Positions 5,447 to 29,664 of a DNA stretch of 34,913 nucleotides are shown here, piece by piece (positions within the stretch are counted from its first letter, which is position 1; each line of letters opens with the position of its first letter). Source of the stretch: Gammaproteobacteria bacterium (GTDB lineage: Bacteria; Pseudomonadota; Gammaproteobacteria; SURF-13). The notes beneath the pieces were generated by a model that saw only the letters and a program-made list of their open reading frames with translations, was not told where the DNA came from and made no database searches. Where the stretch lies: positions 1 through 34,913 of the forward strand of contig JACPZD010000034.1 in NCBI GenBank assembly GCA_016195665.1, given 5' to 3'. Made by a program: the position numbers and the translations under genes.

Positions 5447-11427
<5,981 letters not shown>

Positions 11428-27819: not shown

Positions 27820-27825
27820 TAGCTA

Positions 27826-27964
27826 GGGAAGCTCTAAGGAAACTCTGAAAAATATATCGCCAACCGCCAAGGCGCCAAGGTCACCAAGAAAAAAGGCTTG
27901 AATTTGTAAAGAAAAGTCTTGGCGTTCTTGGCGTCTTGGCGGTTCAACATGATCAGAGCTTCCC
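27826..27964. repeat. CGCCAAG inverted repeat nested between GGGAAGCTCT arms
   Basis: The outer arms GGGAAGCTCT (27826-27835) and AGAGCTTCCC (27955-27964) are perfect. The inner arms AACCGCCAAGGCGCCAAG (27862-27879) and CTTGGCGTCTTGGCGGTT (27927-27944) differ at one of 18 positions. The structure starts 7 bp after the priA stop. It looks like one repeat inserted into the loop of another. Confidence 0.75.
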
Positions 27965-27969
27965 TAAAT

Positions 27970-28107
27970 AAGTCCATCCTGGACTTCTCAGAGCACGAAA
28001 AGCAAAAATGTGATTTTTGCTTTTCTTCATTTTTCAAACACTTCCGTGTTTGAAAAAGGGTGGTGCATCCTTGCACCACAGGAACCTCTGGCTTAATCAG
28101 AGGTTCC
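27970..28107. repeat. Composite hairpin-chain element, copy 1
   Basis: Five perfect or near-perfect hairpins follow one another. AAGTCCA-TCC-TGGACTT is at 27970-27986. GAAAAGCAAAAAT with its complement is at 27997-28025. TTTTTCAAACAC-TTCC-GTGTTTGAAAAA is at 28030-28057. GTGGTGCA-TCCT-TGCACCAC is at 28060-28079. GGAACCTCTG...CAGAGGTTCC is at 28081-28107. An inverted, interrupted copy lies at 32064-32411. No coding frame is supported in 27820-28197. Confidence 0.85.
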
Positions 28108-28120
28108 CTAGCCATCTAAA

Positions 28121-28186
28121 TATTGTCGAGAATCTCTTGAAATGTTGTCGATAATGTGTAAAATGCTTGTCGATATTGTTTATTTT
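28121..28186 (+). promoter_or_regulatory. Three 22-bp iterons upstream of the HTH-ATPase-STAS gene
   Basis: The core TTGTCGA occurs at 28123, 28145 and 28167, exactly 22 bp apart, so all three lie on one face of the helix. The flanks are AT-rich and partly alike (TTGTCGAGAAT, TTGTCGATAAT, TTGTCGATATT). The array ends about 12 bp before the start codon of a gene with an N-terminal HTH, so autoregulation is the simplest inference. It overlaps any possible promoter of that gene. Confidence 0.75.
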
Positions 28187-28197
28187 GTTTATAAATC

Positions 28198-29214
28198 ATG
28201 AGAAAGAAAACATCCGAAATCAGAAATTTCATGCTGCGCATATGCCGCAATAAGGCGCGTAATGTTGCTGCTGAAACGGCACGGCATTTCGGTATTTCCA
28301 AGCAAGCCGCAAGCCGTCATCTGCACGCACTTGAACATGACGGAATGATTGGCTCTTCGGGTAGTGGAAACGTAAAGGTTTCGTGGCTTATTCCATTGAT
28401 TGAAAAATCCTGGATATTCCCTTTGGCCGGTTTGAGGGAAGATATAGTTTGGCTTGAAACGTTGGCGCCACTTCTGGCCGGCTTGCCAGAAAATGTACGC
28501 GACATGTGGCATTACGGCGTCACGGAAATGATCAATAACGCCATAGATCATTCCGAAGGGACTGAGATCAGGGTTCATTTCGCTCGCACCGCGCTCGATA
28601 CAGAGATCTGGATTAACGATGACGGGGAAGGCATTTTTCATCGCATTCAACGATTAGAAAATCTATATGATCCCAGAGAGGCGATCCTGGAACTGGCAAA
28701 AGGAAAGTTCACAACAGATCCGGCCAACCATTCTGGTGAGGGTATATTTTTCACCTCGCGAGCTTTTGATTCATTCGCAATCATGTCGCGTACGCTCTAT
28801 TTCTCGCACACGGCAGAGCCGGATGATTGGTTGATAGATGACGAGAAAGACATCCCGGGGACACGCGTGTTATTGAAGCTAGATAACGATAGCCAGCGTA
28901 CGCTTGCTTCGATTTACTCACAGTTTGCTGCGCCAGACGAATTTACTTTCAGCAAAACCATTGTTCCGGTTCGATTGGCTCGCCATGAAGGTGAGAAGCT
29001 TGTTTCACGTTCACAGGCAAAGCGTCTGGTATCTCGCTTTGAGAAATTTAAGACGGTAGTTCTGGACTTCACTGGAGTGGAAGAAATCGGCCAGGCCTTT
29101 GCTGACGAGATTTTCCGGGTGTTCGCCTCATCGCACCCAGAAATTGAATTAATTACAATTCACGCCACAACAGAAGTACAGCAAATGATAGTTCGCGCTT
29201 TGGCTGTTAGATGA
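28198..29214 (+). CDS. HTH / GHKL-ATPase / STAS-like (DUF4325) regulator
   Basis: The 338-residue protein has three parts. Residues about 1-65 form a winged helix (NVAAETARHFGISKQAASRHLHALEHDGMI). Residues about 95-230 are a GHKL ATPase with N-box TEMINNAIDHS (109-119), DDGEGIF (141-147) and NHSGEGIFFTSRAFD (177-191). Residues 268-338 are a STAS-like DUF4325 domain (RSQAKRLVSRFEKFKTVVLDF, then EIGQAFADEIFRVF). No phosphoacceptor or sensor domain is present. It may act as an ATP-dependent switch controlling DNA binding. No Shine-Dalgarno precedes ATG 28198. ATG 28231 is an alternative start. GC content appears lower than in neighbours, and it splits priA from argS, suggesting acquisition. Confidence 0.8.
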   Translation: MRKKTSEIRNFMLRICRNKARNVAAETARHFGISKQAASRHLHALEHDGMIGSSGSGNVKVSWLIPLIEKSWIFPLAGLREDIVWLETLAPLLAGLPENVRDMWHYGVTEMINNAIDHSEGTEIRVHFARTALDTEIWINDDGEGIFHRIQRLENLYDPREAILELAKGKFTTDPANHSGEGIFFTSRAFDSFAIMSRTLYFSHTAEPDDWLIDDEKDIPGTRVLLKLDNDSQRTLASIYSQFAAPDEFTFSKTIVPVRLARHEGEKLVSRSQAKRLVSRFEKFKTVVLDFTGVEEIGQAFADEIFRVFASSHPEIELITIHATTEVQQMIVRALAVR

Positions 29215-29541
29215 GCCTCACTGCGTCCACGCTGTTGCGCGAACCTGGTTAATAGAACGGCAGCTGGCTCACAGTGAGCGCAACTAGGTCAGCGGCTGTC
29301 TGACAATCCCCTTACCCCTACCATCCGCCGGCCGGAATCTCCCGTTCGTCTGCTATCCTCAACATTTTGGCACATCTGATCCTTACGCACCGCTCCAGCG
29401 TATCCTGAAGAGCGCCATCAGCGGCGGCGGCAGCGGAATTTCGGCGGTACTATGACTTGGGTGGAGATTCATCCGCAGTAATAGTGGGCGAAGAAGGCTG
29501 GGATGAGGCACAGCACAATGCAGTCTAACTTTGAACCGTCA

Positions 29542-29570
29542 GACTGCCCCGGATCAAGTCCGGGGCAGTC
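29542..29570. repeat. Perfect 12-bp hairpin upstream of argS
   Basis: GACTGCCCCGGA (29542-29553) and TCCGGGGCAGTC (29559-29570) flank loop TCAAG. There is no T-tract, so a terminator is doubtful. The rest of 29215-29664 shows no convincing gene, only short frames without recognisable motifs. Confidence 0.7.
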
Positions 29571-29664
29571 CCCGCAGCCTGACCCACAAGGCTAATCAAA
29601 ACAGCACGCCATCACGGCTTGGTGTAAAATTCGCGCTTCACAAAGCGACTAACCAAGGCGTATC

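Follow-up and report, generated by a model that had tools for sequence, protein, structure and literature searches.

The closest known systems to the gene described here are CapK/CapS and VapKSC. CapK has the domain order HTH-STAS-GHKL and is an ssDNA-activated kinase of CapS, with a Trp (W68) in the STAS-GHKL groove serving in the activation by ssDNA (Chambers et al., EMBO J 2026, PMC13373217). CapS is a STAS-wHTH repressor of immune operons, which carries a phospho-Ser54 and sits as a dimer on TTAA palindromes, and the CapK/CapS pair is autoregulated through an operator overlapping promoters (PMC13373217). In VapKSC, the STAS protein VapS restrains the VapC toxin (PMC13373217). In agreement with the initial annotation of the locus studied here, which held that such roles are normally split over several proteins, kinase and STAS partner are separate in both CapK/CapS and VapK/VapS (PMC13373217).

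Here, we analysed a stretch of 34,913 nucleotides (the window), in which priA and argS flank an ORF with an ATG start that encodes a single protein of 338 aa. The features of the locus are as follows.

27820..29664, no strand: segment missing between priA and argS in four sister genomes, an insertion with approximate borders
28123..28129, + strand: iteron 1 (TTGTCGA), directly 5' of the predicted -35; triple significant against shuffles, position kept in loci L001-L004
28137..28142, + strand: predicted -35 (TTGAAA) in the gap between iterons 1 and 2; best sigma-70 match
28145..28151, + strand: iteron 2 (TTGTCGA) within the promoter spacer; exact match
28159..28164, + strand: predicted -10 (TAAAAT) in the gap between iterons 2 and 3; sigma-70 match
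28167..28173, + strand: iteron 3 (TTGTCGA), over the transcription start expected from the predicted -10
28198..29214, + strand: wHTH-GHKL-DUF4325 (STAS-like) protein, 338 aa; from ORF, Pfam and AF2 model
28201..28395, + strand: winged-helix DNA-binding domain, residues ~2-66, with the recognition helix at ~35-47; AF2 model
28396..28896, + strand: GHKL domain, SpoIIAB/RsbW-like, residues ~67-233; AF2 model and HATPase_c_2
29014..29178, + strand: DUF4325 STAS-like domain, with GQA at residues 298-300 (29089-29097), where stand-alone relatives have Ser; Pfam and alignments

The proposed fusion of a winged helix, a GHKL ATPase and a DUF4325 domain in one protein was confirmed by Pfam searches together with the AF2 model. 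DUF4325 (PF14213) matched residues 273-327 (E 2.6e-16, 59.5 bits against a gathering cut-off of 23) and HATPase_c_2 (PF13581) residues 94-195 (E 3.3e-7, 30.8 bits against 27.4), and several HTH models gave weak matches below their cut-offs. In the AF2 monomer model, built from 35 relatives (pLDDT 85.5), the winged helix resembled MarR/ArsR/Zalpha-like folds (Z 8-9), and the GHKL domain resembled SpoIIAB (1l0o_A, Z 14.0, rmsd 3.0 Å over 135 residues) and RsbW (6m36_G, Z 13.8, rmsd 1.7 Å over 102 residues). A sequence search returned no solved structure of a full-length relative. The STAS assignment of the C-terminal part rests on its Pfam family, the model of this part alone being poor (pLDDT 62). 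The family sample consisted of the nearest 80 of 373 relatives, which together with the window gave 81 upstream regions. The GHKL boxes were recognized as an N box (E110-x3-N114-x3-H118), a G1 box (DDGEGI, 141-146) and a G2 box (GEG, 180-182); N113, N114, H118, D141, G143, G145, G180 and G182 were invariant in 81/81 and E110 was present in 79/81. Trp85 was also invariant among the family proteins aligned.

The gene differs from its surroundings in composition, its GC content being 0.42-0.49 against 0.60-0.65 in the flanking genes, as the initial annotation had noticed. The gap between priA and argS is 1846 bp in the window genome and 88-113 bp in four sister genomes of the same family, indicating that the 338-aa gene is an insertion. 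A search of 95 genomes found it in 11, and the five other genomes of its own family all lacked it. The empty site in the sister genomes and this patchy distribution bear out the suggested horizontal acquisition. Between priA and the iterons (27832-28110), the window holds two dispersed MITE-like repeats, one of ~135 bp with ~28 copies in the genome and the other of ~147 bp with ~10 copies; no Rfam match to a structured RNA was found between priA and argS.

Relatives of the gene also appear to travel alone. The ORF in the window is solitary, with argS as the next gene, and across 80 loci no conserved neighbour gene or operon partner was found, the downstream gene lying on the + strand in 37 and on the - strand in 41 without bias. 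No PADLOC family recurred among the immediate neighbours, and PADLOC gave no convincing match to the protein itself. The comparison of homologous neighbourhoods proposed in the initial annotation therefore upheld its remark that no effector gene is adjacent. Searches of plasmid and phage record collections gave no match to the gene. A few relatives lie on viral contigs, at least two of them among phage-like genes, and L110 and L112 look prophage-borne. In L064 (around 7750-9150), the family gene forms an integron cassette that is flanked by almost identical attC-like sites (0/320 controls). A general origin from integron cassettes was rejected, since attC-like pairs were found in L064 only and none in the window. 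In a further five loci (L027, L042, L049, L057 and L071), a similar transposase-like ORF lies less than ~1 kb upstream of the family gene on the opposite strand. On the genome comparisons, the gene is thus best described as a mobile, patchily spread insertion that travels alone.

Upstream of the ORF, the three TTGTCGA copies at 28123, 28145 and 28167 are spaced 22 and 22 bp from start to start, exactly as the initial annotation described, and this triple was significant against shuffles. The 7-mer by itself is unremarkable, with seven single copies in the whole window against 3.8 expected, so that the signal lies in the phased triple. The initial annotation had the array abut the gene start; it lies near the ATG but does not touch it, iteron 3 ending 24 bp before it. 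The best sigma-70 match in the window was TTGAAA (28137)-16 bp-TAAAAT (28159), and 0/100 shuffles contained one as good; the predicted -35 falls in the same place in several loci of the TTGTCGA class. The iterons are therefore predicted to interleave with, or double as, sigma-70 -35 and -10 elements, and such an overlap points to repression by occlusion.

The array proved to be a conserved feature of the family. In the 110 bp upstream of the starts of the 80 relatives, self-similarity was found at lag 22 in 65/80 and at lag 21 in 57/80, with ~2-7 expected from other segments. Direct search recovered a significant triple in 72/81 regions, with a spacing of 21+22 bp in 46 of them and of 22+22 bp in 15; nine regions had no clear triple. 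The triple was also present in 14/18 of a second, less biased set, for which whole-gene or Pfam searches and not conserved peptides had been used. These data indicate that the iterons are kept upstream of homologues and form a functional element shared across the family; the lack of such conservation, which the initial annotation had named as refuting its proposal, was thus not observed.

While the spacing is nearly fixed, the core varies with the protein clade. TTGTCRA is found in Chlorobium and around the window, TTGACAA in most other relatives, and CTTTACA and CTTTAAGA in one further clade each. On a tree built from the protein without its HTH, the operator class changes four times, compared with 18-22 changes when labels were shuffled, and consensus recognition-helix residues differ between the operator classes. 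For 36 of the TTGACAA loci, the best promoter was TTGACA-17 bp-GACAAT, with iteron 1 supplying the -35 and iteron 2 the -10, the 17-bp spacer resulting from the 21-bp first iteron gap; for three of the CTTTACA loci, the promoter TTTACA-17-TACATT uses the iterons in the same way. Going by their record titles, relatives with a phased triple occur in at least eight phyla. A spacing kept across phyla and a site sequence shifting with the protein point to a self-repressing switch.

The initial annotation had also supposed that targets of the protein may lie elsewhere, and proposed a genome-wide search for the 22-bp array. In this search, the phased array occurred only once in its own genome, and with three mismatches allowed the only other match was at control level. 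In the genomes of 28 relatives, most array matches were at the family gene and few elsewhere. Of the matches away from the gene, five were read: one is the promoter of a decayed second family copy (L098, about 1500-1700) with two iterons left, and no obvious target was seen at any. These results lend no support to remote targets reached through the array. As far as can be seen from these genomes, the array appears to serve its own gene only; single 7-bp sites are indistinguishable from chance.

In the STAS-like domain, the fused family has Ser or Thr at neither of two candidate acceptor positions in 81/81, and carries Gln-Ala or Gln-Gly at the usual phospho-Ser position. Selection accounts in part for the presence of Ala300 in 81/81, as the peptides used to collect relatives included QAFADEIF. 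In the less biased set, the motif was GQA or GQG only, except for one GPA fragment and one truncated ORF of 165 aa with Ser (L127). Stand-alone DUF4325 proteins, by comparison, aligned in 11/11 with Ser at one of two positions preceding the conserved aromatic residue. With the usual acceptor Ser replaced by Gln-Ala or Gln-Gly, the STAS domain has the appearance of a pseudo-substrate that cannot be phosphorylated. Ser270 and Ser272 are invariant in the family and could be alternative phospho-acceptors.

Comparison with the known systems revealed the same building parts in a different arrangement. Like CapK/CapS, the family combines an anti-sigma-kinase-like GHKL, a STAS and an HTH or wHTH domain in one regulatory module, and has an operator overlapping a promoter, here a predicted one. 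In contrast to CapK, in which HTH is followed by STAS and then GHKL and capS lies directly next, the family protein is a single chain of wHTH-GHKL-STAS and has argS next to it in the window. In CapS, the STAS domain with its conserved phospho-Ser precedes the wHTH and the operator is palindromic, whereas the order here is reversed, Gln-Ala occupies the two candidate positions and the operator consists of direct repeats at 22 bp. Moreover, CapK/CapS sit upstream of immune operons, and no downstream operon is present here. Because domain order, partner and acceptor residue all differ, the family protein is neither CapK nor CapS.

With VapKSC, the family shares a GHKL kinase and a DUF4325-type STAS partner, and in a profile comparison with eight VapK/CapK-like kinases the GHKL of the window matched with E 8e-9. 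However, VapKSC comprises three genes including the PIN-domain toxin VapC, its STAS protein keeps the Ser and its kinase is without a wHTH, whereas the family gene is solitary and its protein has lost the Ser and possesses a wHTH. Stand-alone DUF4325 genes often lie behind GHKL genes, and one locus (L149, 859-2637, -) has the vapK-vapS-vapC order with a kinase of 290 aa, a DUF4325 protein of 115 aa and a PIN-like protein of 180 aa. This gene order suggests that DUF4325 is a VapS-type STAS domain. In L159, a 389-aa protein of GHKL and C-terminal DUF4325 (895-2064), with no recognised HTH and with the serine of an SSF motif kept, is encoded beside a 165-aa PIN-like gene (367-864); the pair is possibly a fused vapK-vapS beside vapC. 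SpoIIAB and RsbW share the GHKL fold and the N box E-x3-N-x3-H with its catalytic Glu and Asn, but each of them consists of one domain and works with a sigma factor and a STAS antagonist that can be phosphorylated, whereas here the STAS lies in the same chain and is without the usual acceptor. With the iterons of plasmid and phage replication, the array has in common that direct repeats recur in phase roughly every two helical turns; the locus has neither a replication initiator nor an origin, and its repeats lie within the promoter region of a chromosomal gene for a regulator.

Taken together, we consider the gene to be a horizontally mobile single-gene autoregulatory switch that represses itself via iterons on its own promoter, with a probability of roughly 60%. 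The winged helix would bind the three same-face iterons over its own sigma-70 promoter and thereby repress its own transcription, and the pattern of operator and promoter makes autorepression by the family protein likely. The GHKL domain would act as an ATP-dependent domain of the anti-sigma-kinase type, with DUF4325 as its covalently attached STAS partner, turned into a pseudo-substrate by loss of the acceptor Ser. More speculatively, protomers may join into a head-to-tail chain through docking of each STAS domain on the GHKL domain of its neighbour; such a chain would fit direct repeats spaced by about two helical turns, just as the symmetric CapS dimer fits palindromes. That a kinase-substrate pair was frozen into one chain in this way, with the pseudo-substrate STAS as the head-to-tail link between protomers on DNA with direct repeats, is a tentative proposal that we hold to be possible, if on the doubtful side. 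A signal on the ATPase, perhaps ssDNA by analogy with CapK, would then take the chain apart and set free a burst of protein, which might be active in its own right, for instance by binding to a further partner or phosphorylating it. The operator might instead mediate activation, but its overlap with the -35 and -10 elements speaks for repression. Control of itself alone does not explain why the gene is retained, which counts against a self-repressing switch.

Alternatively, the protein could be a trans-acting stress regulator, with the array setting its own level and its main targets being other promoters with single or degenerate sites. The majority of wHTH repressors regulate other genes besides their own, and TTGACAA, the commonest core, is similar to a -35 element, so that many promoters could hold single sites. 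However, neither the window genome, searched with three mismatches, nor the matches read in the genomes of the 28 relatives yielded an array above control level or an obvious target beyond those at family genes, and single 7-bp sites do not stand out from chance; we regard a trans-acting regulator as unlikely. The mobility of the gene, its patchy spread, the integron cassette and the relatives on viral contigs, including L110 and L112, would also suit a defence or abortive-infection element of one gene that stays repressed until the cell is infected and whose protein then harms cell or phage, and its kinship to CapK and VapK, controllers of immune operons and of the VapC toxin (PMC13373217), points the same way. 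Nevertheless, the protein has no recognisable effector or toxin domain, its immediate neighbours are diverse and share no recurrent PADLOC family, and the plasmid and phage record collections hold no match, which makes a defence element quite improbable. As the GHKL fold is closest to SpoIIAB and RsbW, a classical anti-sigma partner switch was also considered, in which GHKL holds a sigma factor and STAS is released by phosphorylation; replacement of the canonical phospho-acceptor and the lack of a recurrent sigma-factor gene next to the family gene across the loci make it highly improbable, although the invariant Ser270 and Ser272 might stand in as acceptors.

The comparisons above point to a switch that is built from parts related to CapK/CapS but arranged differently. 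DUF4325 is barely mentioned in the literature searched, and its stand-alone form can now be linked to the VapS-like proteins that partner GHKL kinases, while a widespread fused family with a conserved phased operator is brought to light. This family is a natural experiment in which the operator sequence varies along with the recognition helix while the spacing is held, and it offers a directly testable example of two signalling partners converted into a switch made of one chain. If the head-to-tail reading is true, it would represent a repressor filament under ATP control on a mobile regulon of one gene, whose protein and operator co-diversify across phyla.
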